A stretch of DNA of 64,000 bases from a virus, in the IMG/VR virus record IMGVR_UViG_3300030419_005383, positions 1 through 64,000 of that record, one strand, 5' to 3'. The position numbers and the translations under genes were made by a program. A model generated the notes under the pieces. It was not told where the DNA came from. It did not search any database and saw nothing but the letters and a program-made list of their open reading frames with translations. Below, piece by piece: positions 4,725-47,439 of this stretch; within the stretch, counting starts at the first letter, position 1; each line of letters begins with the position of its first letter.

Positions 4725-4907
4725 ATGACCCGTAAACAATTCGAGGCCAAGTACCGCAACGCATGGGCCAAGCTAGTCAAGTCTGGCCAATACACGCCGG
4801 AAGGTCAGCAGGCCCTCAAAACCCTTTCGGCCTTGTATGACCTGAACCCAGAATGGGCCGACGACGCAGAGGACCAAAGGATCGATGACGCCAGGATGAA
4901 CGGCTGA
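4725..4907 (+). CDS. Small protein, 60 residues, unknown
   Basis: Start at the ATG behind AAGGAAGG; the open frame to 4596 is a shadow of the gene before. Helical, acidic at the C-terminus (DDAEDQRIDDAR), basic at the N-terminus. Second gene of the P3 operon. Confidence 0.6.
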   Translation: MTRKQFEAKYRNAWAKLVKSGQYTPEGQQALKTLSALYDLNPEWADDAEDQRIDDARMNG

Positions 4908-4936
4908 AACCATCTCCACCCACAAGGAACAAACCA

Positions 4937-5245
4937 ATGAACGAACCTATCTCCCTGCACGGCTGGACCGTGGAAACCGAAACCATAGTCGATGAGGTTG
5001 GACTACAATTTTACCACGCATGGGTCGAGATCTCCCTGAAAGAAGGCGGACCCCTGCGCCCGTTCGGCGCTAGTAGCATCGACAGCCCAGAAGAGACCTT
5101 GAGGCGGTTGTCCTCTCGGCTTGGTGCGGTTGTCAGAGTGATGATCTACCTCAACGGTCCTTGGGACAAAGAGTACAAGAAAGTCCATGAGTTGAGCATG
5201 GAAATTGACAAGCGCGCGAACTACCCACTTTCGACCTCTGCCTGA
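4937..5245 (+). CDS. Hypothetical protein, 102 residues
   Basis: ATG after AAGGAACAAACCA. Predicted mixed alpha/beta: strands in the first 35 residues (WTVETETIVD), then a helix SPEETLRRLSSRLGAVVRVMIY. Charged and soluble; no family recognised. Third gene of the P3 operon, 29 bases after its neighbour. Confidence 0.62.
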   Translation: MNEPISLHGWTVETETIVDEVGLQFYHAWVEISLKEGGPLRPFGASSIDSPEETLRRLSSRLGAVVRVMIYLNGPWDKEYKKVHELSMEIDKRANYPLSTSA

Positions 5246-18985: not shown

Positions 18986-19479
18986 TTTTAACCCTATTCG
19001 CGTTGATGCTTGCGGGCGATTTTTATCGCCCAATAGCCAAGCCGGAGCCGAAGCCATACGCCGATATGCTCGACACTATGACGGGATTCCGCGGCGTTGA
19101 GTTCCGCTCTGCGCCGAATCTGGGCCCAGAATTTCTGCTCTACGAAGACAACATCGATACAACCGTTTACCGGCGCCCAGGTGATGATCTGCAATTCTCT
19201 GGTGTTGAGATGGACGATGTCTACTACGTCTTCTGGCGGGGCAAATTCCTGGGAGGAGTTGCTTTGTGTTCCATCGCCGTCCACTGCCTGGAGCCTTTGT
19301 ATCTCGCGATTGTGCCAATGCTTGGTGAAGGAATCTTTGAAGAACACGAGGACCGAATTGTCTGGCCAGGCGAGCAAGCCTTTCTGGTTCTGAAACGAGA
19401 AGAGGACGGCACCGGACGGCTACTGTTGCTTGACAAAGAGACCATAGAAGAAATCCGACAGACGCCTTCGGAGAAGTGA
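18982..19479 (+). CDS. Putative exported protein, 165 residues
   Basis: The N-terminus MILTLFALMLAGDF reads as a short signal peptide; the rest is a beta-rich, acidic domain (DIPTTVY-like strands, LVLKREEDGTGRLLLLD). No Cys follows the signal, so it is not a lipoprotein of the standard type. It may act in the periplasm or at the membrane, for example in exclusion of other phages; this is inference from topology only. ATGA overlaps at both ends. Confidence 0.55.
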   Translation: MILTLFALMLAGDFYRPIAKPEPKPYADMLDTMTGFRGVEFRSAPNLGPEFLLYEDNIDTTVYRRPGDDLQFSGVEMDDVYYVFWRGKFLGGVALCSIAVHCLEPLYLAIVPMLGEGIFEEHEDRIVWPGEQAFLVLKREEDGTGRLLLLDKETIEEIRQTPSEK

Positions 19480-19742
19480 TGAACGCCACACAGGAACGAC
19501 TTGACACCCTTTCAGCGGTCCAGGCCTTAGTTGATGCGCTGGGAGGCAGGGTCAAGCCAGCAGCAAGGATCATGGGTGCATCTGAATCAAGCTTGTACAA
19601 GGTTCTCAAGAAAGAGAACGCGGCCCCGACGCTCGATACATTGGCCCGATACGCCAACAGAATTTTTCGAGAAACTGGAATCCGTCTCATTTTTACTGTG
19701 ACGCCCGATTTTAAACTTCATTGGACCGTCAAGAACGAATGA
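19476..19742 (+). CDS. Cro/CI-type helix-turn-helix protein, 88 residues
   Basis: ATG overlapping the preceding stop, with a second ATG three bases on. Residues about 20-65 fit a lambda-repressor-like fold: ALGGRVKPAARIMGASESSLYKVLK, then a third helix starting TLDTLARYA. The C-terminal strand region may mediate dimerisation. Probably a transcription factor. Position at the end of the small-gene block and just before the replication genes suggests it controls one of the two. Confidence 0.65.
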   Translation: MMNATQERLDTLSAVQALVDALGGRVKPAARIMGASESSLYKVLKKENAAPTLDTLARYANRIFRETGIRLIFTVTPDFKLHWTVKNE

Positions 19743-19936
19743 TGTTTTTGACGAGCTAATCTCAACACCCTATTCTCTTCTGGCCTGCCGGGATTGATCC
19801 CCCGGCCTCGTGAAAGCGAGTCAGGCATCTTGGTTGGGCCCCCGCCACCAAACTAGTCGTTGCTCTGCGCGGTTGGTGGCGGAGCGGCCCCAGCCAGGAG
19901 TGCGCCTGCCGCGACCACTAAAGGAACCAAGAACCA
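19743..19936 (+). ncRNA. Structured RNA-like segment before the primase gene
   Basis: Two strong structures fill the spacer. First, a three-way junction: outer stem GCCTG/CAGGC (19783-19787 with 19822-19826) enclosing hairpins CCGGG/CCCGG (19788-19805) and CTCG/CGAG (19807-19820). Second, a long hairpin: CCGCCACCAA with TTGGTGGCGG (19842-19851 with 19873-19882, ten perfect pairs), extended by GGGCC/GGCCC (19836-19840 with 19886-19890). No T-tract follows. A leader controlling primase expression, an independent small RNA, or a replication-origin structure are the candidates. No Rfam family was recognised. Confidence 0.5.
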
Positions 19937-20998
19937 ATGAAACTCTGGATTGAAAACGTGAAGCAGGCAGCAACAACGACACAGGTTGCTAAACTTCTCG
20001 GAGCCAAACCAGGCAAGAACAAGTCATTTGGGCCATGTCCAGCCTGCAAGAACGAAAGACGAAGCAAAACTGATCAGCGTAAGCCTTTGACGATTTATTC
20101 TACTGGAAAGTGGGTTTGCTACGCATGCTCAGCCAAGGGCGATGGCGTGGACCTTGTATCTATTCATCTTCACGGTGCCAGGCTTGGCGCGGTCAGTAAG
20201 GATAAAGTGAAAGCCGTTCGGGGGTGGTTTGCATCCCATGGCTTCTGCGAGAATGGCCAGGCTACACCAAAGATTCCAACCGGGCGACCCCAGCGCGAGA
20301 AGAAACAGGAAGACCAGAACGTCTACGTCAAGCGGGGAAGACCACCGGCACACGAGATCGTTTCTCTTTGGAAATCGAGCCTGTATCCCAACAAGGCCGT
20401 GGAGAGCAGCCGGCCGAACGACCCACTTGTCAAATGGCTGCTCAATCGCGAATTCTCCCCTCAGACCCTGAAAAACACAGGACTCATAAAAGTCACGCCA
20501 CTGGGCGTAGACTATGAATATCCTGAATGGTGGCCTCGCCAGTGGTCATACTCCATCCGGCTGATCACACCAGCGTATGAACCCAACGGAAAGGTCGCCT
20601 CACTGCACGGGCGAAGCGTCGTGAAGAGCGGCCCAAAAACGCGCTGGCCGCTCGGCTACGAAGCGGGGGGTCTCTGGATGGCAAACCGGTCAGGCGTACA
20701 CATGATGCGCGGGCAGAAGCCCAGGCTGAGCGGCGTTCTAATCTGCGAAGGAATTACAGACCTGATGCGGGCTGCTTGCCAGAACATCGACCAGGCGTTG
20801 GGACTAGCTGTTCTCGCTGGGACATCCGGCTCGTTCCGTCACGTCCACCAAGCCAGCATTCCAAAGGATCTGCCAGTCTATCTGGCTACGGATGACGACG
20901 GGACTGGTGATAAGTATGCACGTATAGTTGTCGAAAAGCTGAAGCACAACAGAATCTACCGCTTGAACCTTGCAGGAACTGCCGATGCCCGATCTTGA
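19937..20998 (+). CDS. DNA primase with CHC2-type zinc finger and Toprim domain
   Basis: 353 residues, ATG after AAGGAACCAAGAACCA. A zinc finger C34-P-A-C37 ... C61-Y-A-C64 at the N-terminus, in the CHC2 style of DnaG-like primases, and a Toprim core: LICEGITD (E271) and YLATDDDGTG (D319-D321), the acidic residues binding Mg2+. A KRGRP patch near residue 132 could contact DNA. It would lay RNA primers at the phage fork or origin. Overlaps the helicase gene by 14 bases, so both are likely made together. Shorter than host DnaG, lacking a helicase-binding domain, as usual for phage primases paired with their own helicase. Confidence 0.85.
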   Translation: MKLWIENVKQAATTTQVAKLLGAKPGKNKSFGPCPACKNERRSKTDQRKPLTIYSTGKWVCYACSAKGDGVDLVSIHLHGARLGAVSKDKVKAVRGWFASHGFCENGQATPKIPTGRPQREKKQEDQNVYVKRGRPPAHEIVSLWKSSLYPNKAVESSRPNDPLVKWLLNREFSPQTLKNTGLIKVTPLGVDYEYPEWWPRQWSYSIRLITPAYEPNGKVASLHGRSVVKSGPKTRWPLGYEAGGLWMANRSGVHMMRGQKPRLSGVLICEGITDLMRAACQNIDQALGLAVLAGTSGSFRHVHQASIPKDLPVYLATDDDGTGDKYARIVVEKLKHNRIYRLNLAGTADARS

Positions 20999-22310
20999 CG
21001 ATGCTCTCAAAGCCTCAAACCTCAAAGACCTTATTGATGAAGCGAATGAGGCCGGCGCCTTACACGAGCCATCGAACGAGCTGACGCTTGGCGACATTGC
21101 CGATGAGTCTGTTTTGGCCAGGCTCCAGCAGTACAAAGATTCGTATGGAAACCCGACCGGGCGACCAATGAAAACAAGAAGGAATTGCTATCTGATCATT
21201 CGGTACGACAAACGACTGAGTAAACAGATCTGGTTGGACTCATTCAAGAACGTGCTGATGTTTGGTGATGCCGACTACAGCGATACGGATGACACTCGAA
21301 TCTCTCTCTGGATTGATGCGGTCTACGGCGTTTCATACGCACCGGGCACCATCATGGAGATGACCAGAAAAGTCGGCGAAGAGAACCAGAAAAACGAACT
21401 GGTTAACTGGCTGAACCGAATCACATGGGACAAAACCCCCCGCTCGGAAGAGTGGCTGATTGAAGGCGCTGGAGCTGACGACACAGAACTGATCAAAACA
21501 ATGTCCAGATGTTGGTTGATTCAGGCCGTGGCCAGGGCTCTCAATCCCGGCGTGAAAGGCGATGTGTGCTTGATTCTGGTCGGCCCTCAAGGCGCCAAAA
21601 AATCCACCTTGCTGGAGGCCGTCGCTGGGAAGGAATACTTCGCGGACACTCCCTTGGACATCGGAAGTCGTAATGCCTACCAACAATTGCAACGTGCTTG
21701 GATTTACGAGGTAGCAGAATTAGACTCAATTCGGCGCAGCCATAACTCAAGCACAAAGGCCTTTTTGAGCGCCACCGAAGACACCTTTGTGCCACCGTAT
21801 GGCAGGCATGCTGTCACCATCAAAAGACATGTCTGCTTCTGCGGCAGTACGAACGAAGACACCTTCCTGCGAGACAAAACCGGATCTCGCAGGTTTTGGC
21901 CGGTTCGTGTTGGAAAAATCAACCTGCAATGGGCCAGAGAAAACCGAGAACAACTCTGGGCGGAAGCTGTCCACCTGTACAAGTCGGGCGCCCAATGGTG
22001 GCTTGGCCATGATTCTGAAAATGTGCTGGCAGAAGAATCAACCCAGTACGAAGAAGCCGACCCGTGGCTCAACATCATCGCTGAGTTCTTGTTGACGCGG
22101 GGGGGCTCAGCCCTGGAAACGTCTGACATCATGAAAGAGGCCCTGAAGCTGGAATCTCACCACATGTCGAGAACGAACAGCATGCGTTTACACGAAGTCA
22201 TGACAAAGCTTGGATGGGTTCGAGAACGCCGATCATACGCCGGAACCAGAGGGTACTACTGGGTAAAGAGTGCCGATGTGCTTAGCTTCAATAAATTAGG
22301 TGATTTATGA
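20985..22310 (+). CDS. VapE-type (virulence-associated E) replication helicase/ATPase
   Basis: 441 residues from the ATG at 20985 after CAGGAACTGCCG; a TTG 15 bases upstream is unlikely. Walker A GPQGAKKST (residues about 200-208), Walker B-like region YEVAELDS (about 241-248), and the signature RDKTGSRRFWPV (about 296-307) with its arginine fingers, all features of the VapE family, which act as SF3-like replicative helicases in phages and phage-inducible islands. The C-terminal 80 residues form a winged-helix-like domain. Works with the adjacent primase. ATGA overlap with the next gene. Confidence 0.85.
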   Translation: MPDLDDALKASNLKDLIDEANEAGALHEPSNELTLGDIADESVLARLQQYKDSYGNPTGRPMKTRRNCYLIIRYDKRLSKQIWLDSFKNVLMFGDADYSDTDDTRISLWIDAVYGVSYAPGTIMEMTRKVGEENQKNELVNWLNRITWDKTPRSEEWLIEGAGADDTELIKTMSRCWLIQAVARALNPGVKGDVCLILVGPQGAKKSTLLEAVAGKEYFADTPLDIGSRNAYQQLQRAWIYEVAELDSIRRSHNSSTKAFLSATEDTFVPPYGRHAVTIKRHVCFCGSTNEDTFLRDKTGSRRFWPVRVGKINLQWARENREQLWAEAVHLYKSGAQWWLGHDSENVLAEESTQYEEADPWLNIIAEFLLTRGGSALETSDIMKEALKLESHHMSRTNSMRLHEVMTKLGWVRERRSYAGTRGYYWVKSADVLSFNKLGDL

Positions 22311-24137: not shown

Positions 24138-24382
24138 CAGGATTTCCTCTTGTGTAAACGCTTAGATAGGCCAGGCCAACTGTTTGTAGATACTACCCCA
24201 CCCGTGGCTTCTTCGACAGCCACCGCCAGCAGCAATGATGGCACCGAACGCCCAGACTCCAAGTCTCGCAGATATGGAATGCTGATGGTCAGCCCGCCTG
24301 GAAGCTGTCCGTTCAACCATGAGCAAAACGCAACGCGAGTGCTGTGGCGTGGATGACTTTGCCGATAATCAGAGATGTTCAC
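24137..24382 (-). CDS. Cro-like helix-turn-helix repressor
   Basis: 81 residues from a GTG after GAGGTGAT. The segment TISIPYLRDLESGRSVPS followed by LAVAVEEATGG is characteristic of the Cro/CI and YdaS-like family, with 'YLRDLESGR' the recognition-helix region. It faces the recombination operon across a symmetric promoter region with several inverted repeats, so it most likely represses both its own gene and the exonuclease/RecT operon. First gene of a two-gene minus-strand operon, the only minus-strand genes inside the left arm apart from its extreme left end. Confidence 0.72.
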   Translation of the reverse strand: MNISDYRQSHPRHSTRVAFCSWLNGQLPGGLTISIPYLRDLESGRSVPSLLLAVAVEEATGGVVSTNSWPGLSKRLHKRKS

Positions 24383-24384
24383 AG

Positions 24385-24442
24385 CATCACCTCAACTCAA
24401 TGTAGTGATGCTATTGACATCACTTTATCATGTCAATACGAT
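24385..24442. promoter_or_regulatory. Divergent overlapping promoters with operator half-sites
   Basis: Rightward: TTGACA (24414-24419), 17 bases, TACGAT (24437-24442). Leftward: TTGACA (24436-24431), 17 bases, TAGCAT (24413-24408). The two -35 elements are the two arms of one inverted repeat, ATTGACAT/ATGTCAAT, spaced by 9 bases. In addition CATCAC occurs at 24385-24390 and 24418-24423 and inverted (GTGATG) at 24405-24410. The geometry makes simultaneous use of both promoters impossible, and the half-sites are natural targets for the Cro-like protein. Confidence 0.7.
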
Positions 24443-24461
24443 TGGTAAGACAGAGGTAAGA

Positions 24462-25421
24462 ATGACTTCAGAAGAACGTGAGAAGTGGCTTGAGAAACGC
24501 CGAACCGGATTAGGCGGAACGGACATCGCAAAAATCATCGTGGACGCAGCACCCCCCGCCAAGCGCATCGGCTGCTATCGGGGCAGCATCTTCCAGATGT
24601 GGGCAGAGAAAGTCGGGCTGCACCAACCGTCCGAATACACCATGAGTGATGCGGCCAGGCGCGGCATCCAGCTTGAGAGCTATGTTTGCGGGCTGTACAA
24701 AGACTACCTGAGCGAAGAGGTTGAGTTCACCGAACTAAGCTCAGTTCAGCACCCAGACAGGCCCATCATCAGGGGAACGCCTGATCGAATGGTGAAAGCG
24801 ATTGCTAGCGGCAAGACATGGGGCATGGACGCGAAAACCCGCCGATACAAAAAGGGTTGGGGCGATCATGAAACCGCTGACGTTCCGCTGGACACCGAAA
24901 TCCAGTGCCGTGTCTACATGGAAATCTTCGACAGTCCAATGTGGGATGTAGCTGCCTTGTTTTCGCTTGATGATCTTGGGGTCTATCGGCTCTTTCGTGA
25001 CAAAGAGCTGGGACTCCAAATTCTCGATGTTGCCGAAACATGGTGGGAGACTCATGTCATTGGCAACAAACCGCCAGACCCAGATGGTCATGAGAAGACC
25101 CGAGAGCTTCTGGCGCATTTTCATGACAAGCCAACTGATGAATTGCGGCAAGCGACTTTGCTCGACCAGCAGCTACACGAAGACCTGATCGACATCCGAA
25201 AGCGATACAAGGAACTGGGCGCAGAGAAGCATTTGCTGGAAAACACTTTACGTGGCCGAATCGGTGACGACCTTGGCATCAAAGGCATCGCCACATGGAA
25301 GCAGGGTAAACCTCGCAAGATTCTCGACACGAAGCGGCTCAAGGCTGAGGACCCGGAAATCTACGAAAAATACTTGGTAGAGCGACCAGCTACCAGAACT
25401 CTTCGCGTCATGGGCGAATAA
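24462..25421 (+). CDS. YqaJ-type viral recombinase / lambda-exonuclease-like nuclease
   Basis: 319 residues from the ATG after AGAGGTAAGA; the frame upstream crosses the promoter. Features of the YqaJ/exonuclease family: RRTGLGGTDI (13-22), E72 in RRGIQLES, D108 in GTPDRM, D123-x-K125 in GMDAKT, and Q148 in EIQCRVYM, together a PD-(D/E)xK active site. It would resect 5' strands to feed RecT. The C-terminal 100 residues are helical. Followed 14 bases later by RecT. Confidence 0.8.
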   Translation: MTSEEREKWLEKRRTGLGGTDIAKIIVDAAPPAKRIGCYRGSIFQMWAEKVGLHQPSEYTMSDAARRGIQLESYVCGLYKDYLSEEVEFTELSSVQHPDRPIIRGTPDRMVKAIASGKTWGMDAKTRRYKKGWGDHETADVPLDTEIQCRVYMEIFDSPMWDVAALFSLDDLGVYRLFRDKELGLQILDVAETWWETHVIGNKPPDPDGHEKTRELLAHFHDKPTDELRQATLLDQQLHEDLIDIRKRYKELGAEKHLLENTLRGRIGDDLGIKGIATWKQGKPRKILDTKRLKAEDPEIYEKYLVERPATRTLRVMGE

Positions 25422-25435
25422 CCACAGGAGAAATC

Positions 25436-26293
25436 ATGACTCAACTTCAACAACAAAATCAAAGCCAGCTTGCTGTCCTTCAGGACTACCTGATTGATCG
25501 CAAACACGTCCTACAGGAGCTTGCGCCAGACGGCGTAAACGTAGACAAGATCATCAAGGTTGCCATCTTTGAGGCTGCTAAGAACGAACAGCTTCGGTCC
25601 TGCACACCACAGTCCATGTTTATGGCCATTGGCAAGGCCTGTGAGCTTGGCTTGGCTGCTGGAGGGGTTCTGCATAGGGCAAGCCTCGTGCCCATCTACA
25701 GCAAGAAGAAGCGGGCCATGGAGGCGGACCTCTGGGTCGAATACACCGGGCTGATGGACTTGGTTCGTCGTTCTGGCGAAATCGCTTCTTTTGTCGCCCG
25801 TGTGGTTCATGAGAACGAAGAGTTCGAACACTACTTTGATGCTGCTCAAGGTGAAGTGCTTCGTCACCGGCCATGCTACGACTCTGACCCAGGTGGACTT
25901 CGGCTGGCTTATGCCGTCGCTTTCTACAAAGATGGCCGTCGTCAGATTGAGGTCATGCGGCGTGACCAGATCCTCAAGATTCGTGACGGCTCACGCTACA
26001 ACGGGAATGGTCCGTGGAAAACTCACGAAGAAGAAATGTGGCGCAAAACCGTAATTCGCCGCATTTGCAAATACCTTCCCCTTACACCACAGGCTACAGC
26101 CGTTATCAACGACGATATCAACACTGAATTTTCCGGCAACATGGACCTGATGGACAACCTGTCAGTCGCAGCCACCGAAACCATTGATGTTGATTCCGAT
26201 ATTATCGATGAACCGGCTGAGACGATTGCTCAAGAAGCAGTCAAAAAGGCCAAAACAAAAACAGCTAAAAAAACTACTGAGGATGTGAACTGA
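25436..26293 (+). CDS. recT: RecT-family single-strand annealing protein
   Basis: 285 residues, ATG after CAGGAGAAATC. The core around SMFMAIGKACELGLAAGG, then a strand-rich part with LWVEYTGLMDLVRRSG and YAVAFYKDGRRQIEVM, and the 'WKTHEEEMWRKTVIRRICKYLPLTP' region (split here: WKTHEEEMWRKT and RICKYLPLTP) are hallmarks of RecT. It anneals single strands produced by the neighbouring exonuclease, in phage recombination, repair or concatemer formation. The C-terminus is lysine-rich. One-base overlap with the next gene. Confidence 0.88.
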   Translation: MTQLQQQNQSQLAVLQDYLIDRKHVLQELAPDGVNVDKIIKVAIFEAAKNEQLRSCTPQSMFMAIGKACELGLAAGGVLHRASLVPIYSKKKRAMEADLWVEYTGLMDLVRRSGEIASFVARVVHENEEFEHYFDAAQGEVLRHRPCYDSDPGGLRLAYAVAFYKDGRRQIEVMRRDQILKIRDGSRYNGNGPWKTHEEEMWRKTVIRRICKYLPLTPQATAVINDDINTEFSGNMDLMDNLSVAATETIDVDSDIIDEPAETIAQEAVKKAKTKTAKKTTEDVN

Positions 26294-35256: not shown

Positions 35257-38200
35257 TCATTCATCTATAGCAGATTCAGCTTGGCGTTTTTTCTCTACTG
35301 TTGCTTTAGACAAATCTCTCAGGGATGAGCGCAAGGCACGCTGAATCTTAGTTTCTTGCGTCTCTACAACATCAGGAACAATACCTATTACGCCCATTGC
35401 CTCGCCGGGAGAGAACGCGGCAGGGTCTTCACCAGCAACCAGCTCTGTACGAGGCACCATTGTTTCCGCGGCAACCGTACCGGGTTGTGCTTGTATGTAT
35501 GTTGACGTACCAGGCAGTCTCACTCGCCTGTGTCGGGGCAAATAATGTGAATCAATGTCATCGAGAAACCCTTCACGGTTTCCGAACTGACGAAATTGAT
35601 AGCCAACCTCCAGCATGGATTCAACGGCGCCCATGTTTGCGCGATCTAAGCGATCAAAAAGCGTCATCTCACGCCCTGCAAAAGGTAAAGGCGCCATATT
35701 TTTCCACATATGGAACAGCAGGGGACCAAGAGATCCGCCGGCTTTATAAGAGACAGTTTCTCCAGGCACCTTTTGATATTCAGGGTCACTTGGCCCCCAA
35801 ACTTCCGCACCAAACAACTCGTCAACGACGTACCCCCCACTGGGGCCATACCGGTCAAGATTGACGAACCAAGATGGGATAGTGCCTGAACGCCGAAGGC
35901 TTCGATTGAAGTAGAAGTTTTGTTCAGTAACAGTGACAATTGGAAGCATTAAAACAGGGTTCGTCATCGAGATAAACTCTCGAAGACCCTGATCACCTTG
36001 CTTGGTGCCATGGTAAGCAGCCGCATCGAAAAGGTTCAAGAAAGGCATCATTGCTGTAAAAGCGGGCAATTCAGGCGCATACCAGGCAACTTGCTTGTTT
36101 TTCATCCGGTTTAGAACCGACTTCATTGCAAACATGACCGGACGGCTTTCGAAGTAATGCTCTTCAACAAGGACAGGTTCTTCTTCAAGCCAGAGGTTCT
36201 TGCTGCCTTTGACCAGGCGCATCTGTGCCAGGATTCTGCCTGGGTTGGTCAACAACGTCTCGTAGAATAAATCCAGATTCTTGCGCTGGAAACTGTAAAA
36301 CATAAACACAATACGCATGAAGGATTTTTCGAATTCAGTCAGCGCCGAATAGTCCATGCCGATCTTGCGCGCCCTCGCCGCGGCTTGACTGGGAGACAGG
36401 CCGCGCTCTATTTCAGAAATCCAGACAGATACGCGGAAGATGTTGTCCATCGCGGTCGCGAATTCCAGAAGCGTTTCCTTCCAGGGTCGATAAACTTTCT
36501 TAATGAATCCGGTCGGTGACTTATACCACGGGGCCGTGTCCAGCTTGTCTCGCAGAATCTCATGGACCGCTCTCGCTGATTCAGCCTGAGGGAAGCTGCT
36601 TTTCAAACTGTGGGCAATAGCCATATTACCGAGACGATTTGCTGTATATACACGGTAATCTTTCGTGATTAGGGGGCGCGCGTTTGGCTTCCAGCCACCC
36701 TCTCCCCACATTCTGGAAACAACAGCACCGACCAAATTGGAGTTCTTGGTAACCAGGCTTGTCCCCATCCTGGCCATGGTCGGAACTGCCTGCGCTGTAA
36801 TTTTCCCCGCCTTTACCGCCCCAAGGCCTTGATGAACAGCCGCAGCAATTCCCATAAACGCGGCCATGTAGTACGGTAATTCAACCAGACCGGTCCCCGT
36901 TGTCATGTGCTGCTTCATTCTGGAGTGCGTCAACGGATTCAGCTCAAAAACGGTGTCAACGGCTTGAGCCAGTGTCAGCTTCGCCTTCTCGGTCGGGCCC
37001 AGGTCTTCTGGAATAAACTCAGGGCCAAGCTCTGTTCCTAACAGGCCCTTCTTGGTAGCCTTTAGGCGCCCCTTAGCGGCTATATCCTGCGCCTTACGTG
37101 ATTTTGCTCCCGTCCAGGCGTAGCCGATTTGAGACAGCCTATTGGTCATCTCTTCAATTTCTTTGATGGCGGCTTCCGGCAGTAAAGTAGTGCTCCCGTC
37201 AGGGAATGTGTGTTGTTGGAAACCTGATTTTGCGTACTTGATTCCCCATTTTTGAACATACTTATGCGCAACCGTGTAGGCCTCAAGATCATCATTGTTT
37301 ACGGTCAAGCGCCAGTCAGGTTGACGCGGTGGTTTTGGTCGCGGTGTTTGAAGCCTTCTTTTCTCAGGTTTTCTGATTGCTTGATAATTAAAGCTCATGA
37401 TCTGATTGATGTGGTGATGCACATTCTCAACGAATGCGATTCGATCAATCGACGTGTCAGGTGAGAAGCCGCGGTGTGAGGTCAGTTCTCGGACATCTCC
37501 CGTGTACCCGTACTTTGCCAGGTTGTGCGAAAGCACAGTCAAGATTTCCATGAACCGCATCCGCATGATCATTTCAAGAATCGCCGTTGCGGCGTCATAC
37601 TCATACCCGCTAACAATCAGGCCCTTTTCTTGAGCCAGATTGATCATCTCCATGAATCTGCCTTGATAGAAATTCTGATAAATGCTGATCAGCTCATACT
37701 CATCAAGGTTCTTCACAATGCTAAGATCATCGGCTCCAGACAAGGATATTGCCAGATTTTCGGCCCGAACCAATACTTGTTTTTTACGGCGAACAAGCCC
37801 ATTGTGAATCACCCGGATCGCATCTGACACCGCATATCTGTCATTGTCAGACAGTTCCACCAAGCGGTCAGGATTGGTTGGGTCAATGTAAGATCGAATA
37901 ATATCCAATGCTTGACGATCTTTTGGATGCAGCCCCCAGTATTCAGTCAAGTACCCCTGGATGTTGTCCAGCTTTCTAACCAACATCTGAAGATCGAAAC
38001 CTTCATCCAATTGATCAATTTTGATGTCAAGTTCTTCTTGGGTTTTGAACCTTAGATCTTCACGGCTGATAACTCCAGACAGATCTCTTTCCATTTCTAA
38101 AATCGGTTTCAGGTCAGAAAGGGCAACAGGTGCATTGAGGTGCTCAATCAAGTGGTCATACAACTCTTGGACTGTTCCTTCCTTGTTGCCTTTTCTCCAT

Positions 38201-41200
38201 TCAGAAACCGCACGAACAAAGAATCGTGGATTGTCTTCACCCAGCCGAAGCGAGTTGTTTATGAGGTCCCGAACCGCTGGGTCCATCAGGTCTTTGCCAA
38301 ATTCTGGCACAATGAACAAATCGCGGAATTTCCTTCTGACGTTGTCGATTGATTTAAACAAAGCCCTGTTGTCAACTTTGTCGAAAACCTCGCCCACATA
38401 CCGAGTAAAGGCGAGGGCCAAGGAACGGCTCATTCGATCATCGTATCGATTGACTCGTGCAGCCACGCCTGCGCTTACATCAACCAGAACCTCATGAATG
38501 TTTTGCCAGTCGGCAACCGCAATCTTTGTGAAGTCACTTTGACGGAAAAACCTGTCAGGCAGAATGTTGCCCATTGGTTCATTTGCCAGCTCATGTACCA
38601 AACGCTTGATGCGAGCAGCCTGAGGCGGATCAAACTCAATGTAGTCGGCCTCATCAAGCAACCGTGCGTTGGGGTCTTCCTGCATGTAAGATCGAACAAG
38701 TCCGGTAGCATCGCCCCTGCTGACCAATTTGATTCGCTTGACAAGCTGCTTGGCGTTTTCACCAACAGCATCCATCAACCGGTCAGTGACATCTTTTTTG
38801 ATTCGGGACACCCTGCTTGCTGGAACAATCGTCCGAATCGTCATCCTCACTACGTTTTCTGCACGCTGACTTCTCTTAAACCGCTCCGCTGCCTCTAAGC
38901 CCATAGAGCGAACAACAAGCGCGATTGCGTCGATCTCGTCTCCAGCCTTCACGCCAAGCTCTTGTCGCAACGACTCCTCATCGCCCATCAACCGCATACC
39001 CGCACGCCTTCGACCGGCTTTTCCGACCGGTGATTCAAGAACCCGCTCAGCCATGGCTGTTGGCACCATTTCAGGTGAAATGTTCTTCAGTCGAGTGAAC
39101 ACATCCGAAACAATCCCTTTCGACACTTCTTTGAGAAAATCATCTGCCGACAAGGGGGGACCGAGCTTTTCGTCACCTCCTTCCAGTCGGAGCCTTAAGT
39201 CACGTCCTTCCAGTCTTTTCAAAACATCTGAAATGATCCCGTCCATTAAGCCTTGGATTAGATCATCAGGCAATTCTACTGGGACTCTCGAATCTGCCAT
39301 AAGTTTACGAATAGCAGTATCAGCAATATCAGACGCAATGCGTTGAGCTACTTGCCGATCCCGTAAACGAAACACCTTCATCAGTGGAGTCAGTCCAGAT
39401 TTGTCATCCGCTTGCGAGACGGTCCTGGCGACATATCCCTCGATGGACTTTTTCACGCGGCCAGCAACCGAACGCTTCAACTGAACGACTGGTCGCTTTT
39501 GAGTCTTCTTCAAAACGTCGTCGGTGATCTTTGCGGCAGGCATAGCCAGCAGCTCGGACGGCCTGTACAGCTCATCCCAGAACTCAGCCAGGTGCTTCGG
39601 CAAATTGTGACGCTTCTGACGGATTAGGCGCCAAAGATTGCGAAGCTCACCGTGAAGCTGACCAATCAGTCGATTCACGCCTGGATTGTACGAAGCCCTC
39701 TTGGTTTCCCACCATTGAGCAAGGGCATTAGCAAATTGTTCGTGTCCAGCGTCAGTAAGTCGCCCGTTTTGGTCTGTATCAAAAAAGCGGAATAGCCAGC
39801 TTCGCCACTTGTCACCCATAATGGCCTGCAACAAGTGTCCATTTTCATGAGCAAGTGTATCAAAGCGCCCAGTCGAGAAAAGGCGAAGTAGATACGAGGC
39901 CGTTCCAGACTCGTCCGTTCGAACTTCGAAACTGCCGCGTGGAGAATCCGGCCCGCCGTCGTAGCGAATCGATGTTGGAAGAGCAGGCTTGGCCTCAGTC
40001 GGAGCTATCCGAAAGGCATCCGCGAGGACATCAAGGACTGTATCATCTGGTTGAACTCCGAATCGCTCAATGGCTCTGTCGTAGGCTGCGCGGTTGACGC
40101 TTGGGTGCTCGTACCAGTTTCCTCCAGCTTCTTGGGAGAGTCTGGCGAGGTACTTTCCTGTTGGTTCTCCTTCTGGCTGCCGGGGGAGGATTCGTTCTTC
40201 TGGGGAGAGTTTTTTGAGGACATCTTTGGCATGGGATTTAATCTCTTTTTCGAATTTATTTTTTGACTTTAGATCAAACCCAAAGATTCGACCATCGGAG
40301 GTGGCGGCAGCAAGTATGCCGTTTCCGTGGACAGGATCCAGAGCATGCAGATCTGCTTTCGGGACGTTTACATAATAGAAACCCAGGATGGGTGACCTCT
40401 GCTCACCCATCCGAACATAGACACCACGATAGGGTGATTCCAGCCCAAACATCTCTTTGACCAGCGCCTCGCCAGTGGAATGCGAGATGAGCTGCTGGTT
40501 CGCCGCTACCCATGTTTCCCAATGGAAGCGACCAATGGAAGCATCTTCTGGACGGCCCAATTTCTTATAGACTTCGGGTACGATCTTATTAAGGGCGCCT
40601 TCCACGGCCTCATAGAACAGAAGACCGCGGGGCCCATCAAATACCGACGCAAGACCTGGTTTTTGGGACCATGGCCGAAATGATGCGGTGCTTTTGTATC
40701 CACCTTTTGGCGCCTGCCATCCAGTGTTCAGACTGCCGGGATTTCCGTATTCATTGGCCCGATTCGCGTAGTCATAGATGTGCCTGGTCTGCCATACATC
40801 CAAAACAGCCGTATCGGGTCGCCCTGCCATCAAAGCGACAAAGCTCATCACTTTGTTTTGAATGCCGACCCCCTGGCTCATCGTCCAGAATTGCCGGCGC
40901 ACTTCGCTTCCAGACAGATTTTGGTCGGACATCAGTCTATGTATGGCCTCCAGTTTAGTCATGCCTGGATACCGATCATGATTTACAGGCAACCGCTCGC
41001 TCATCCGCCTCAAGAACAGATCACCAAACGCATTGAGATTCATCAACGCCTGTGTGCCTGGAGAGCCCGAATACTTGTTAAGATTCACGATGGCCCGAGC
41101 ACGCTTCCGCCAGGCGGCTTGCCAAACGTCATCCCATTCGCCGCGCAGAGCGACATTGATGAATTCGTCTACGCCAGCATTGACGGCATCAATGAATCCT

Positions 41201-44200
41201 GCCTCTTGAATCCAAACAGAAGAATTTCGGCTGAGCATGCCCCACAGAAACAGCTTCGCTGTATGGCGCGGTTGAGCCCGCCCGGCGGCATATGCTTCGC
41301 CAAATTTCTCAACAACACTAAAGCCTTCATTTACAGCGCTCTGCTGTTCAGCCGTGAGGTTCTCTTTCAGGAAATCAACAACCGCATCAGGGTTGTTGTA
41401 GTATTCGATCATCTTATACGGGGGCTTCACCACGTTCTTATCATTCGTGGCGTTAAACCAGAACTTCTTCCATTCGGCTTCACTCGAAAGCATCTTGCCT
41501 TCTGGCCAACGCTCCAGCAAGGCATCGATTTTAGCTAATACATCGTCACCACGGCGGGTCGGATTCAATGGAAGGGCCTTTTCCTTCACGCTGTCACGGG
41601 GCTTGAACCTCGTCTTGATCGCCATCGGGGCCGGAACAGCAGCGAGAACCTCAATTCTGAACGCCTCACGAATCCGTCTACGTTCTTGTTCTGGTAGAGC
41701 CTCACGCTCGGCCTTGGGCATCTTTGCGTACTTGGCCAGCGCCTTTTTTCCTATGGGAACAATTGGCGTCTGCTTGGAATCCAGAAACGCCTCAACGTCT
41801 TGGTCCGTGAATTCGGCGCCTTCATGTTCAGCCAGGTCGCGTGTAATTTTTGGCGGGACTGGCGCCTTGCTGGGTAATGGCTCTACCATTCCCGCTGGAG
41901 GGGCCACAGATGGTTCCCCTTCTCTGGGGGCCGTCAAAAGATCATGCTGAATCCTCATGGCCTCAGAAAGCGCGTTTCTGTCTGTTTTCGCGATTCCGAG
42001 CGCATCAGCCACCCACGAAAGCAGCCGGCTCCAAACCGACTCCTGGGTGTCAACGAACACGATGTCTTTCAATATTGACTGGAATTCTGGATTAGAAAAC
42101 GCTTCAGCAAGAAACTCCTTTGCGTTTTTCAATCCATAAGGAAGGGTTCTCACCACCGGTTCATCGTCAACTATAAGTTGTTCCAAATAGTCAACTTCCT
42201 CACCGAGAGTCTCTCTTCTTTCTTCTTGCCTCAAGTAGCCATCAAGCCTGTCTCTGACGTACTCCCAAAGATGATCCAACTCTATAGAGGCTTTTCCCAA
42301 TGGGGTTGACGGGCCCTCACCTAAGCCTTCGTTGTACCGCATTACGGTTGCTGCATGGACCAGCTCATGGAGCGCGGTTTTTTCCCAATCGCCAGACCGC
42401 AGCTTTTCATTGGGTTGATATAGATCGATATGGGGACTAGGCCGACCCGGCCCGAGCCAATAGTATATTCCCGTCCAACCCTCTGGATGCGCGGCCTCTG
42501 TGGTTTCTATCGATACATCATCGGTGATGAACTCTTCAATATATGCAGCGATGGCCCTTATTTGATCGGTTGTTCCGTTCTCTTTTATCCAGTAGACAGC
42601 CTCTTTTGCGCTTTTCCACTGCTTGGCTGCTTTTCTAAATTTAAGATTTGAATCAGCACGAATACTGGGCGGGATTGGCATGGGTGTACGGATCGCAGGA
42701 CGTGCGCCATTCCAGAAAACCCTGGAATCTAAGCCTCGGTAAATCAAATTGTAACGATGTAGCGCACGTGAAACGTCACTTGAGTCCGCATCTCTTACAG
42801 CATCAACCAACCGAAGCGCCTCTTCGGCAGCTCCACCAGCCTGAAGAATCCTTGCTTCAACGGCCTTCCAGTCGATAGTGTCGTCAACTTCAATAAATTC
42901 TTTGAATAAAGAATCGATAAATTCATCACTGAAAACATCGCCTATATCGTCAAGAAGTCGTCTGGCCTCACCAAAAGCGACCTGCCTGAATGTTTTAATC
43001 GCAGGAAGAATCTTCTCTTGGTATTCCTTGATGGAGCCGATTTCGGTCAGTAGTTCACGGGCCTCTTCATAAATCGCCCGATCAACATCGTTTAGTTCTT
43101 GGTCCTTGAGACCCATGAACCGTGAAAAGTCTGCTGGTGTATTGAACGCCCTGCTTACCACATCTGTTGATACGCGCTTCTTAATGCCATCGGCCTTTAT
43201 CCTTGCTTGTACTCGATCTTTTCTCTCTTTTTCTCGCTTAATCACGGCCCGTTCTGGCCCTGTATACCGAGACAGACCTTTGGTTTGAGATTCAAACCTA
43301 TCTTCGGCCTTAGCATAGGCGTCGAAAACTGCTTCATCGTTCGCCAGAGTGAGTGCAGACGCCTTGCGGAGGACTGTTCGCTTTAACGCTTGAGCCATCG
43401 GAGAGACCCACTTGTACTCAATGGACAGTTCAGAACCTATCGGTAAACCGCCACGGCGAACTTGATATTCGCGATTGATGCCACGAAACAGTGAGGTCCA
43501 TTCATCCGATTGAAAAATAGAATGAAGTTCAGCATTGAGACCGAGCTGTGTTTTGGTGTCTTTGAGGCCCTCAATCAATCCGTACAAATCGCTCCGCCGA
43601 ATGTTTTTCTGATCAAACCGCTCAATCACGCCCTCATAAACATCTTCTATCGTCCATGGTTCTCTGTCCAAAAGATGCGACTTTTTGAGGCTACCCTTAT
43701 CTGAAATTAGAGGCTCAATATCTTTAAGTGCAGCCCGAAGAGCATCTATGGCGCCTTCTGGAATCCCTTTAAGTACAGCGCCTTCTGGAACTTGAGTGAG
43801 ATCCTGAAGGATTCTTTCTATGTTGTTGAGGTCACTCCAAACGAGGCGTTCTGCCATTTTGACCTGTTGACTAAAAATACCCCCAATGGCCCTGATCGCA
43901 TGCCAGGGTGTATATTCAAATCGGCCATATTTGGTTTCAGCCGAGAGGCGGGTTCCCATTGTTGCGGTTTCAATCAATTGACGAATGCTGCCGTAGCCAC
44001 TCTCAACATCGAGATCTTCCGGCCTGTTGGCGTTCCAGGCTCTCTCAAGCGAGTTCTTGACCCACGATGCTGACTCAAGCAAATAGTTCGGCCATGCTTT
44101 CGGCAGCTCAGGGGGCTTGTCAGGGGGCTTAAGGATAACTTCCGGGTCAAGCGAAGGCAGCGGATCTCTGGCGCCCTCGACGCGCGGGGATGTCAGCCAG

Positions 44201-47200
44201 TCGGCGGGGCGCTCCATAAGCTCTACATCAACAACAATCTTCTTTTTGCCCATTCCGCGCAGGGCTTCAAGACGATGCCGACCATCCATGATGCTGTGGA
44301 ATGTTCCGTCTGCATTGATGGCGACTCTTGGCGGGGCCATAGGTTTACCCGACTTAATGAACTCAATCGCTCCTTTCAGTCTTCCGCTTCCCCATAGTTT
44401 CTGTACAGGAATGTCATCGATGTTGACGACACGGGGCTCTATGTATTCCAATCCGGCAAGGGTTCCTGAGTCTTGACGCATCAACTCTTCTACGTCATGA
44501 CCCATTTCTATGATCTCGTCGCGCATTTCCCGAGCCCGGTCTGCCCGAGATCGATACGACACACCCTCGACTTCAGTCACCGCTTCAACTGGTTGACCTA
44601 AGACCTCGACGCGGGCGGGGGGCTCTACACCCTCTGGCGTTTGAAAACGAGCACCAGGCCCAGGTTGACCGCCAACCCGATGGTTAATCTTTTTGAAGAA
44701 ATCAATCGGGGTGACGATGTCAGGAATCATATCGTCAGATGAATGAGCAAGCGCCTGATGCTCAAGAAGCGCAAGATGTATGACCAAGTCCTGGTCCGTC
44801 AGGTTCCCCGCTTTGATGTATTCGCTCAGCTCATCCTTTACGCGCAGATACTCAGGGTCTTTGCGCATACTCATTTCAGTCGGGGTTCCGTGCTGTAGAA
44901 ACCGCTGCAAATTTCCCGTGTAAAGAGAACGGCGACCTTTCATTGCGTTGTTGAAGGTCTTGATAAATTCTTCTGTGTCCTCAACGCCCGTCTCTTTGAG
45001 TCGGTTCTCGAAGGCCTCCAACCGATACCCACTCATGCTGTCCAGGGGGCTGATCCCCAGCTCGATCATCTTTGCAGCCAATTGCATTGTTGCGTTGTTG
45101 ACCGCAGAAACCGCGTCCAAGTCTTCCTTTTTCTGAGGGTCTAAGGCGGCTTCTTCTGGTGGCTTCACAACCCTTTGATAAATCTCAGGTCCGACATACG
45201 CTGACATCATGTGCGTAGCCATAGACAGCTTACTTGTAATCGGGGCGCCATCTAATGCTTGAACCGCCCTTTTGGCTGCAACCGAACCCCGCAATGCGTT
45301 TGCGGATCTTCTTACGCCAAACCCAAGCGTTCTGAAAATTGGAGATTCCCAAGGAACAAGGAAGTCCGCCGAAAGACCGCCAAGCATTCCATACATCCAG
45401 TAACCTTCACCAGGCCTGCCTCCGTTTGCCATCATGGCTCTTCGCGTTGCCATCATCGCACCAGAGTCACCAGTAGCCACGTTAGCCAGGCTTTCCGCCA
45501 TCCAGCCGGTCAAAGTCAACTCTTGATTCTTGTCTTTGACTCCAAGTACCTGATTCAGAGAATCGCCCGCAAAAACCGGAGCATCCATCAAAAGCTGTAA
45601 TTGCGGCTCCATCAGCAGGTCCGCACTTCTCATGACCCGGCTCATGGTCCCTTCAATCAAGTAAAGCTGATTCCCTTCCCGAACAGTGGTTGTCATATAG
45701 GAACCAACCGACTCTTCGAGCTTTGTGGTCGGAGCCGCACGTTCAATCATGCGTCCAGTTGTCTCGATGACTGATGCCGTATCAGGAACAGATTCAGCGA
45801 ACTTGAAGTTCATTGAAACCAAGGTTCCAAATTTCACCTGATTCAGCCAGTTTTGGACTTCAGACAAGTCCACTTCATCTTCGACATCATCTCCAGCCAA
45901 ATCGAGTATCGTCTCAGTAATCCAAGGCCAGTCCGATGTGCCGTAGGCAGCATTCATCGCCTTGCCAAGGTTGCGGTCGTACCTCGCCCAAGATTCATAA
46001 GTCTTACGCTGTTCCGGTGTTGCCTCTTGCAAAATATGAACAAAAAGACGCACATCCGGCATCCGTGTGGGTCCGCCATACTCCTGCCTGAGACTGCCTG
46101 GAACATCCACATATGAGACATTCTGCATCTGATCTAAAAGAATTCCAGAAACGTTCGAGTCTGGATTTTCCTTCGCATACCGAACAGTTTCCATCAACTG
46201 AGCCCAAGCATCCGACCACTTGGCTTCTGAAGTTCGGACTCTGCGCTCTAAATAATATGCGCCCCTTTCCTCAGGGGTCATGAAAGAAGCGCCGGCAACG
46301 CGCTCAAAGAAATCGTTGCTCTTTTCATGAAATTCTCGATAGAGCTGAGCCATCGACTTCAACGCTGGAACGCCTTCTCGCTCCTCATCAGACGACAATG
46401 CGGTTGTGACAAGCAGTGCCGGCAACTGCATAGGCGAAACGGTTGCAACGCTTGACGGAGGCAGCGATTCCATTGCCTCAATCTGACGAGCAAGCGGAAT
46501 CCCGGCAGCGAGAATGTTGTCCATTGCGGTAGCTGATTCAGGGTCCGTATCGACAAGCTCCTGCCGCGCTGACCGGATCTTCATATTGGCTTCTTGAACG
46601 CCTTTTGCCCACTCTTCAACTTCAGCATCTGCCTGTTCAGGCGTCTTGCCGTCCATATGGACCTTCTTCTGCTTCAATACATACCGGGCTCCCTCAAAAG
46701 CCTGCGCCATACCTTCGGCAGTAAGCTCTTCCGCCATATTGCCTGCGCGGGAAAGCTCAGTCACATCCAGGGTTCGGTTGAAAAGGTCCGCCAAGTAGCC
46801 TGGGTCGTCAATCTCGTGAGCCAGAGCTGTTCCACCAGCAGCGCCACCCATTGCTCCAACAATCCAGCCGCCAGGAATCTTCAGCCGGGAAGCCAAAACA
46901 GAACCACCCGCTGCGCCAACTATGGCTAATTCTTCCGCAAACTCAGGAACGTCAGGAAGGTCCCCCTCTGTGATCTCTTCCTTAAAGGCCGGCTGCGTGA
47001 CTCCGATCATTACATCTTTGAGGCCCCTGAGAAGCTCTCCAGACTCCTGCGCTTTATCCAGGGTCTCTTTGTACTCCGCTTTTCTTTTCGCGGGTTCATC
47101 AGGATCAATAGGCTCGGTGACTGGCAGCACTCTCGGCCCAAAGACTGTCTTACCTTTTTCGATCGTGGCGCCGGGCGTCTCGTCGCCTGGGATTCCCTCT

Positions 47201-47439
47201 ATAAATCGAAACCCATCCTCTGCTTCCCGAACCCTTAAATCAATCCATTCGTCAGATTTGGTCGGGTTATCCACCTTGAGGGCTGCTCTGACCTGCTCGC
47301 CAAGCTCACTAATGCCCGCTTCATAGGCCTCACGGAGGTCTTCGCCTGTCCTTATTTCAAAGCGCGGATCAGGAGCGGGGCCAAGAACTTCTGCCGTTTC
47401 TTCAGTGACCTCGGTTCCCTCAAGCGTCTCTTCAGCCAT
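35257..47439 (-). CDS. Giant polyvalent virion protein, 4060 residues
   Basis: ATG after GGAGGCGGTA, 12.2 kb without a stop. Segments recognisable by eye: glycine-zipper/hydrophobic stretch (170-215); a ParB/Srx-like domain (about 1000-1080) with SIMDGRHRLEALRG at 1049; a zinc metallopeptidase motif ALHELVHA at 1689 with a possible third ligand in KEFLAEAFSNP (1774); a helix-hairpin-helix/base-excision-glycosylase-like segment (2186-2222; GVGIQNKVMSFVALMAG then VLDVWQTR); a second gluzincin, AHENGHLLQA (2530) with HEQFANAL (2566); and a C-terminal part (3500-3850) with FYSFQRKNLDLF as in large polyvalent-protein-associated domains. Placed next to ejection genes, so it is probably packaged and injected. 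Exact activities are unknown. Confidence 0.72.
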   Translation of the reverse strand: MAEETLEGTEVTEETAEVLGPAPDPRFEIRTGEDLREAYEAGISELGEQVRAALKVDNPTKSDEWIDLRVREAEDGFRFIEGIPGDETPGATIEKGKTVFGPRVLPVTEPIDPDEPAKRKAEYKETLDKAQESGELLRGLKDVMIGVTQPAFKEEITEGDLPDVPEFAEELAIVGAAGGSVLASRLKIPGGWIVGAMGGAAGGTALAHEIDDPGYLADLFNRTLDVTELSRAGNMAEELTAEGMAQAFEGARYVLKQKKVHMDGKTPEQADAEVEEWAKGVQEANMKIRSARQELVDTDPESATAMDNILAAGIPLARQIEAMESLPPSSVATVSPMQLPALLVTTALSSDEEREGVPALKSMAQLYREFHEKSNDFFERVAGASFMTPEERGAYYLERRVRTSEAKWSDAWAQLMETVRYAKENPDSNVSGILLDQMQNVSYVDVPGSLRQEYGGPTRMPDVRLFVHILQEATPEQRKTYESWARYDRNLGKAMNAAYGTSDWPWITETILDLAGDDVEDEVDLSEVQNWLNQVKFGTLVSMNFKFAESVPDTASVIETTGRMIERAAPTTKLEESVGSYMTTTVREGNQLYLIEGTMSRVMRSADLLMEPQLQLLMDAPVFAGDSLNQVLGVKDKNQELTLTGWMAESLANVATGDSGAMMATRRAMMANGGRPGEGYWMYGMLGGLSADFLVPWESPIFRTLGFGVRRSANALRGSVAAKRAVQALDGAPITSKLSMATHMMSAYVGPEIYQRVVKPPEEAALDPQKKEDLDAVSAVNNATMQLAAKMIELGISPLDSMSGYRLEAFENRLKETGVEDTEEFIKTFNNAMKGRRSLYTGNLQRFLQHGTPTEMSMRKDPEYLRVKDELSEYIKAGNLTDQDLVIHLALLEHQALAHSSDDMIPDIVTPIDFFKKINHRVGGQPGPGARFQTPEGVEPPARVEVLGQPVEAVTEVEGVSYRSRADRAREMRDEIIEMGHDVEELMRQDSGTLAGLEYIEPRVVNIDDIPVQKLWGSGRLKGAIEFIKSGKPMAPPRVAINADGTFHSIMDGRHRLEALRGMGKKKIVVDVELMERPADWLTSPRVEGARDPLPSLDPEVILKPPDKPPELPKAWPNYLLESASWVKNSLERAWNANRPEDLDVESGYGSIRQLIETATMGTRLSAETKYGRFEYTPWHAIRAIGGIFSQQVKMAERLVWSDLNNIERILQDLTQVPEGAVLKGIPEGAIDALRAALKDIEPLISDKGSLKKSHLLDREPWTIEDVYEGVIERFDQKNIRRSDLYGLIEGLKDTKTQLGLNAELHSIFQSDEWTSLFRGINREYQVRRGGLPIGSELSIEYKWVSPMAQALKRTVLRKASALTLANDEAVFDAYAKAEDRFESQTKGLSRYTGPERAVIKREKERKDRVQARIKADGIKKRVSTDVVSRAFNTPADFSRFMGLKDQELNDVDRAIYEEARELLTEIGSIKEYQEKILPAIKTFRQVAFGEARRLLDDIGDVFSDEFIDSLFKEFIEVDDTIDWKAVEARILQAGGAAEEALRLVDAVRDADSSDVSRALHRYNLIYRGLDSRVFWNGARPAIRTPMPIPPSIRADSNLKFRKAAKQWKSAKEAVYWIKENGTTDQIRAIAAYIEEFITDDVSIETTEAAHPEGWTGIYYWLGPGRPSPHIDLYQPNEKLRSGDWEKTALHELVHAATVMRYNEGLGEGPSTPLGKASIELDHLWEYVRDRLDGYLRQEERRETLGEEVDYLEQLIVDDEPVVRTLPYGLKNAKEFLAEAFSNPEFQSILKDIVFVDTQESVWSRLLSWVADALGIAKTDRNALSEAMRIQHDLLTAPREGEPSVAPPAGMVEPLPSKAPVPPKITRDLAEHEGAEFTDQDVEAFLDSKQTPIVPIGKKALAKYAKMPKAEREALPEQERRRIREAFRIEVLAAVPAPMAIKTRFKPRDSVKEKALPLNPTRRGDDVLAKIDALLERWPEGKMLSSEAEWKKFWFNATNDKNVVKPPYKMIEYYNNPDAVVDFLKENLTAEQQSAVNEGFSVVEKFGEAYAAGRAQPRHTAKLFLWGMLSRNSSVWIQEAGFIDAVNAGVDEFINVALRGEWDDVWQAAWRKRARAIVNLNKYSGSPGTQALMNLNAFGDLFLRRMSERLPVNHDRYPGMTKLEAIHRLMSDQNLSGSEVRRQFWTMSQGVGIQNKVMSFVALMAGRPDTAVLDVWQTRHIYDYANRANEYGNPGSLNTGWQAPKGGYKSTASFRPWSQKPGLASVFDGPRGLLFYEAVEGALNKIVPEVYKKLGRPEDASIGRFHWETWVAANQQLISHSTGEALVKEMFGLESPYRGVYVRMGEQRSPILGFYYVNVPKADLHALDPVHGNGILAAATSDGRIFGFDLKSKNKFEKEIKSHAKDVLKKLSPEERILPRQPEGEPTGKYLARLSQEAGGNWYEHPSVNRAAYDRAIERFGVQPDDTVLDVLADAFRIAPTEAKPALPTSIRYDGGPDSPRGSFEVRTDESGTASYLLRLFSTGRFDTLAHENGHLLQAIMGDKWRSWLFRFFDTDQNGRLTDAGHEQFANALAQWWETKRASYNPGVNRLIGQLHGELRNLWRLIRQKRHNLPKHLAEFWDELYRPSELLAMPAAKITDDVLKKTQKRPVVQLKRSVAGRVKKSIEGYVARTVSQADDKSGLTPLMKVFRLRDRQVAQRIASDIADTAIRKLMADSRVPVELPDDLIQGLMDGIISDVLKRLEGRDLRLRLEGGDEKLGPPLSADDFLKEVSKGIVSDVFTRLKNISPEMVPTAMAERVLESPVGKAGRRRAGMRLMGDEESLRQELGVKAGDEIDAIALVVRSMGLEAAERFKRSQRAENVVRMTIRTIVPASRVSRIKKDVTDRLMDAVGENAKQLVKRIKLVSRGDATGLVRSYMQEDPNARLLDEADYIEFDPPQAARIKRLVHELANEPMGNILPDRFFRQSDFTKIAVADWQNIHEVLVDVSAGVAARVNRYDDRMSRSLALAFTRYVGEVFDKVDNRALFKSIDNVRRKFRDLFIVPEFGKDLMDPAVRDLINNSLRLGEDNPRFFVRAVSEWRKGNKEGTVQELYDHLIEHLNAPVALSDLKPILEMERDLSGVISREDLRFKTQEELDIKIDQLDEGFDLQMLVRKLDNIQGYLTEYWGLHPKDRQALDIIRSYIDPTNPDRLVELSDNDRYAVSDAIRVIHNGLVRRKKQVLVRAENLAISLSGADDLSIVKNLDEYELISIYQNFYQGRFMEMINLAQEKGLIVSGYEYDAATAILEMIMRMRFMEILTVLSHNLAKYGYTGDVRELTSHRGFSPDTSIDRIAFVENVHHHINQIMSFNYQAIRKPEKRRLQTPRPKPPRQPDWRLTVNNDDLEAYTVAHKYVQKWGIKYAKSGFQQHTFPDGSTTLLPEAAIKEIEEMTNRLSQIGYAWTGAKSRKAQDIAAKGRLKATKKGLLGTELGPEFIPEDLGPTEKAKLTLAQAVDTVFELNPLTHSRMKQHMTTGTGLVELPYYMAAFMGIAAAVHQGLGAVKAGKITAQAVPTMARMGTSLVTKNSNLVGAVVSRMWGEGGWKPNARPLITKDYRVYTANRLGNMAIAHSLKSSFPQAESARAVHEILRDKLDTAPWYKSPTGFIKKVYRPWKETLLEFATAMDNIFRVSVWISEIERGLSPSQAAARARKIGMDYSALTEFEKSFMRIVFMFYSFQRKNLDLFYETLLTNPGRILAQMRLVKGSKNLWLEEEPVLVEEHYFESRPVMFAMKSVLNRMKNKQVAWYAPELPAFTAMMPFLNLFDAAAYHGTKQGDQGLREFISMTNPVLMLPIVTVTEQNFYFNRSLRRSGTIPSWFVNLDRYGPSGGYVVDELFGAEVWGPSDPEYQKVPGETVSYKAGGSLGPLLFHMWKNMAPLPFAGREMTLFDRLDRANMGAVESMLEVGYQFRQFGNREGFLDDIDSHYLPRHRRVRLPGTSTYIQAQPGTVAAETMVPRTELVAGEDPAAFSPGEAMGVIGIVPDVVETQETKIQRALRSSLRDLSKATVEKKRQAESAIDE

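Follow-up and report, generated by a model that had tools for sequence, protein, structure and literature searches.

The spacer of 194 bases (19743-19936) that lies between a helix-turn-helix gene and the primase gene of a virus record is probably a conserved cis-regulatory leader RNA, a translational switch which sets the level of primase through pairing with its Shine-Dalgarno sequence. By computation, the spacer holds a conserved RNA fold with a defined strand and a fixed position before the primase, and this fold includes pairing with the Shine-Dalgarno sequence. An earlier note on this DNA had offered two kinds of interpretation, a regulatory RNA or leader on the one hand and a single-strand initiation structure on the other. 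The first is borne out by an element that is always directly before the primase start, by stems that are kept through compensation, and by one conserved strand that pairs with the primase ribosome site; the second finds no support, for the reasons discussed below.

Locus and structure of the element

The window, i.e., the whole stretch of DNA analysed, comprises 64,000 nt of the 74,295-base virus record IMGVR_UViG_3300030419_005383. Its replication genes (1-29000, + strand) and virion genes (30000-64000, - strand) meet near 29-30 kb, where the GC skew changes sign. The gene upstream of the spacer (19476-19742, + strand) encodes an 88-aa helix-turn-helix protein (P0003) with a weak match to HTH_28, and it is kept beside the primase in relatives whether or not they have the RNA element. 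Downstream, on the same strand, are the primase gene (19937-20998), which has a zinc ribbon and Toprim and is the putative regulated gene, a VapE/VirE-type (D5-like) replication helicase (20970-22310) as the next gene in the operon, and a DEAD-type helicase gene. The Shine-Dalgarno-like sequence of the primase, AAAGGA, is at 19920-19925 (+ strand) and its ATG at 19937, hence just behind the element, where the earlier note had placed the ribosome site. The same note had excluded a T-tract and a reading frame; indeed, neither a T-run terminator nor an ORF of at least 80 aa was found in the spacer, and a tRNA search also returned none.

Every part of the fold named beforehand, which included a three-way junction with GCCTG/CAGGC and a ten-pair hairpin with GGGCC/GGCCC, is present at its place on the + strand. 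The three-way junction (19783-19826) consists of the helices P1, P2, and P3, of which P1 and P2 have counterparts in relatives. The outer helix P1 pairs GCCT with AGGC (19783-19786/19823-19826) and reaches up to GCCTG/CAGGC (19783-19787/19822-19826). Hairpin P2 (19787-19792/19801-19806) joins (G)CCGGG with CCCGG(C) around the loop ATTGATCC (19793-19800), which contains UGAUC, and hairpin P3 (19807-19811/19816-19820) joins CTCG(T) with (G)CGAG. These are followed by the shared strand S, TCTTGGTT (19828-19835), which is able to pair with either a proximal or a distal strand, and by hairpin P5 (19836-19890), in which a base helix of GGGCC/GGCCC (19836-19840/19886-19890) precedes ten perfect pairs of CCGCCACCAA with TTGGTGGCGG (19842-19851/19873-19882). 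The proximal strand AGCCAGG (19892-19898) pairs with S in the open fold, which leaves the ribosome site free, and the distal strand (19925-19932) pairs with S in the closed fold.

Taken alone, the window is only moderately unusual, and the comparative evidence is the strong part. The minimum free energy of the spacer is -79.6, whereas its shuffles average -66.3 (z -2.8; 0 of 200 as low), and a stem of ten perfect pairs arose in 3 of 300 shuffles of the spacer, while a compact three-way junction, loosely defined, arose in 352 of 1000. Other UGAUC hairpins in the window have weak stems only, and, judged by eye, the UGAUC loop has no downstream pairing partner that is consistent between members.

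Conservation of the fold among relatives

Relatives were gathered from marine viral contigs, 80 of them by the helicase (45-51% identity) and more by helicase alignment. In many of them the gene order is that of the window (small gene, RNA, primase, helicase), and the element is directly before a homologous primase in 36 distinct marine-phage sequences. In these relatives the layout runs from GCCC through a hairpin with the loop YUGAUCM (Y = C/U, M = A/C) to GGGC, and goes on to a strand of which CUCCUGAC is an example, and to a long hairpin. After these comes another strand, for example GUCAGGAG, a few bases (mostly five to eight) before the start codon. A DNA pattern made from the RNA only recovered 41 contigs, and in 41 of 41 it is 80-90 bases before the primase. 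The UGAUC loop never varies: each of the 36 distinct aligned relatives has it, and so do the window and the far relatives L161, L162, and L166. Whole virus records carry one copy of the element each.

A covariation search, of the kind proposed in the earlier note, was run with a covariance model built from 19 relatives, with the window left out. The model matches the window once in 64 kb, at 19778-19905 (30.9 bits, E 2.4e-5), and it also finds L161, L162, and L166, which were absent from its training set. Apart from these, it matches the antisense strand of the element itself and, once, a site at chance level (L004, 12.5 bits), and it has no match in loci that lack the element. The model alignment puts the proximal strand of the window at the position of the distal strand of the relatives.

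Destruction of the stems without compensation among relatives, which the earlier note had named as the refuting outcome, was not what the alignment revealed. Among the 36 distinct aligned sequences, standard pairs fill 97.7% of the pair cells and 18 of the 29 pairs have changes on both sides. Cells with a double change number 95 against 25.6 in shuffles (0 of 500 reach the observed value), and when the partner is slid by 1-3 columns the pairing falls to 40-55%. Covariation is seen at 7 of 7 pairs in P2, 8 of 11 counterpart pairs in P5, and 3 of 7 in the Shine-Dalgarno helix, while P1 is nearly invariant; as the structure was set by hand and the sequences were aligned to fit it, the alignment leans towards that structure. 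On the + strand, G-U cells number 29 and A-C cells 8, as expected of an RNA transcribed from that strand.

A long-range helix (19828-19835/19925-19932) that the earlier note had missed joins the structure to the ribosome site. In the window, UCUUGGUU pairs with AACCAAGA through the core CTTGGTT/AACCAAG; the corresponding S and distal strands are CUCCUGAC/GUCAGGAG in the L010 type, UCCUGGUC/GACCAGGA in L005, CUUCCGGU/ACCGGGAG in L002, and CUCCCAC/GUGGGAG in L162. In a duplex test, which is independent of the covariation alignment and uses strands picked by eye, each of the 15 representatives forms a stronger distal duplex with its own strand than it does on average with the strands of others; the own duplexes average -18.2 kcal/mol and the foreign ones -13.4 kcal/mol. 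The distal duplex of the window alone is only modestly better than shuffles (p about 0.02).

The competing proximal pairing of the window scores -13.8 with its own strand against a mean of -5.4 with foreign strands. The proximal strands at the foot of P5 include AGCCAGG in the window, ACCGGGAG in L002, AUCAGGA in L009, and UCAGG in L048. The pairing is not significant in L121, L161, L162, and L166, and in the model alignment it varies by single G-U-compatible changes only. Hence, the strand comparisons support this putative freeing alternative in most members, not in all. The closed fold (forced) and the open fold (distal strand single) are within about 4.5 kcal/mol of each other in 14 of 15 representatives. 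For the window, the open fold is lower by 2.4 kcal/mol, while in the closed fold the three-way junction stays complete and the GG (19923-19924) of AAAGGA pairs with CC at 19894-19895.

A candidate switch for primase translation and its rivals

The best explanation of these results is drawn from computation throughout, and repression of translation, switching between two states, and the identity of the effector are what we infer from it. The spacer would be part of the primase transcript, as its leader, and would fold into a cis-regulatory RNA. Its sensor-like domain would be P1 and P2 with the invariant UGAUC loop, to which the window adds P3 to give the three-way junction, and this domain would be followed in order by strand S, hairpin P5, and the ribosome-binding site. 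In the closed state, S would reach across P5 and pair with the strand in which, or next to which, the Shine-Dalgarno sequence lies, leaving the primase untranslated. In the open state, S would pair with the proximal strand at the foot of P5, so that P5 lengthens and the ribosome site is freed. Because the closed and open folds are nearly equal in energy, a ligand gripping P1/P2 would set the primase level. Such a ligand would most likely be a protein, from either the replication machinery or the host. A comparison of ten virus records (that of the window, five others with the element, and four without) found no gene confined to the carriers of the element, which leaves core replication proteins, host factors, and small molecules as candidate effectors, or no effector at all.

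A broader proposal, in which we place about as much belief as doubt, is that the element represents a new RNA switch family of uncultured marine phages of about 73 kb, in which the UGAUC hairpin senses the replication state and competing Shine-Dalgarno pairings set primase translation. Candidate signals of the replication state would be the primase itself, another replisome protein, or a nucleotide. The phages that bear the element are podovirus-like by some virion protein matches. To our knowledge, autogenous translational control of replication genes is understood in detail mainly from T4-type phages; if true, the proposal would add another RNA architecture for this task, the second and unrelated to the first, in uncultured marine phages. 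The dosage of primase appears to be under lasting selection, given that the fold is kept though the primases share only about 40% identity. The invariant loop makes a search for the ligand directly testable.

A strict metabolite riboswitch, with P1/P2 (and P3) as a small-molecule pocket and S, P5, and the Shine-Dalgarno sequence as the expression platform, would account for an aptamer-like conserved loop ahead of alternative pairings and for the lack of an accompanying effector gene. It is unlikely, as invariant unpaired bases are very few (essentially UGAUC plus stem positions), P3 is dispensable, and Rfam offers no similarity. Moreover, metabolite riboswitches usually precede several genes and occur in bacteria too, whereas all occurrences found here precede one gene, the primase.

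Improbable as well is a static structure for mRNA processing or stability, such as an RNase III-like intergenic site, in which occlusion of the Shine-Dalgarno sequence would be a fixed decrease of translation. Long perfect P5 hairpins between genes fit such a site, and so does the additional, variable hairpin that several relatives have just past the stop of the upstream gene. However, a static structure has no need of a UGAUC loop that never changes, or of an S that covaries with the ribosome-site strand.

The single-stranded DNA initiation or origin structure suggested earlier, in which an exposed folded strand would load the primase/helicase pair, is very unlikely, even though the element adjoins the primase and helicase genes and its hairpin loop always contains GATC. 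The variation obeys RNA pairing on the + strand (29 G-U against 8 A-C), and the conserved long-range helix targets the Shine-Dalgarno strand, taking in the primase ribosome site a few bases before the start codon. In addition, the GC skew of the window has no turning point at 19.7 kb, and related viruses with the same replication genes are entirely without the element.

Chance folding of a GC-rich spacer has next to no probability, for although compact three-way junctions form in 35% of spacer shuffles, a model that was not trained on the window still matches it and the strong compensation across relatives refutes chance by covariation.

Known systems and distribution of the element

The DNA polymerase and SSB of T4 repress their own translation via leader structures (PMC3014915). 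In the gene 43 operator of T4/RB69, a hairpin whose loop is conserved stands tens of bases ahead of a replication gene and operator sequence extends to the ribosome site, in a phage replisome context (PMC3014915); likewise, the marine element is a leader with a hairpin before a phage replication gene that reaches the ribosome site. The two differ in that the T4 operator is one small hairpin with a single-stranded flank, whereas the element is a leader of several helices in which one strand pairs with the Shine-Dalgarno sequence, and its gene is a primase. Its loop is UGAUC and not of the UAAC type known from T4 (PMC3014915). The pseudoknot leader of T4/RB69 gene 32 is similarly a structured phage leader upstream of the ribosome site of a replication gene (PMC3014915), and related phages have it too, in differing sequence (PMC3014915; PMC535899); the element, in contrast, has no demonstrated pseudoknot and no A+U-rich single-stranded repeat before the start codon. 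By analogy, the autogenous operators of T4 genes 43 and 32 suggest the working mode of a candidate primase operator. Translational riboswitch platforms would share with the element one strand with mutually exclusive pairings, one of which hides the Shine-Dalgarno sequence; in the element, the hiding helix is supported in 15 of 15 representatives and the freeing helix in most, not all. Unlike them, it has no known aptamer or Rfam match and precedes one viral gene only.

Rfam 15 at the gathering cut-off gave no match to the element in the window and nine relatives, and relaxed thresholds gave chance-level scores only. Among cultured phages, a DNA search with the spacer region and the elements of two relatives found no match, and no primase relative was detected at the sensitivities used, only a distant VapE domain. 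Bacterial genomes yielded a single distant primase, L189, where inspection by eye revealed no spacer of this kind. No description of the element was found in the literature, of which the coverage was incomplete. Another genomic context for the RNA was sought with a degenerate pattern, whose one new contig (L187) was rejected as a chance match inside a coding region; this test was partial, as its gap limits missed the commonest sub-type.

In the primase tree, carriers of the element form one group of 28 rows, made up of 27 that have it, among them the window, and the partial case L007; in addition to this group, L161, L162, and L166 carry it. The relatives without it make up the rest and have a short spacer, mostly of 8-60 bases; three changes are needed in all, with the partial case counted apart. 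The primase of the window shares at most 43% identity with any relative, and its long branch leaves its exact place in the tree unsure. P3 was found only in the window, L002, L004, L005, L009, L121, and the partial L007/L008, in another form in L161-L166, and is missing in the L010, L014, and L077 types. In L007 and L008 (both 4844-4939), the UGAUC hairpin P2 and P3 are kept while P5 and the Shine-Dalgarno helix are absent, and CGGGGGCCCCC abuts the start codon in their place; this loss may be genuine or may come from faulty assembly at a hairpin. Upstream of P1, an extra hairpin is present in L002, L005, L014, L077, L079, and L114, immediately behind the stop of the upstream gene; its stem sequences are very different, and it is weak or absent in the window.

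A 13-base near-direct repeat, CAAGAACNAATGA (12 of 13 bases matching), is found on both sides of the spacer, at the stop of the helix-turn-helix gene (19730-19742) and at the primase start (19928-19940). Mobile insertion was considered from these flanks and rejected, since the element occupies the same place in relatives, where no repeats are obvious, and the near-repeat is probably due to chance around two ATGA junctions. Elsewhere in the window, a reading frame of 4060 aa (35257-47439, - strand) has no Pfam or PHROG match, while frames matching it at 22-32% identity occur in 9 of 9 other virus records compared. Genes for a RecE/YqaJ-like exonuclease and a RecT annealing protein are at 24375-26293; both are closer to homologues of element-less viruses and of the virus of L161 than to those of the main element clade, and these affinities suggest module exchange.
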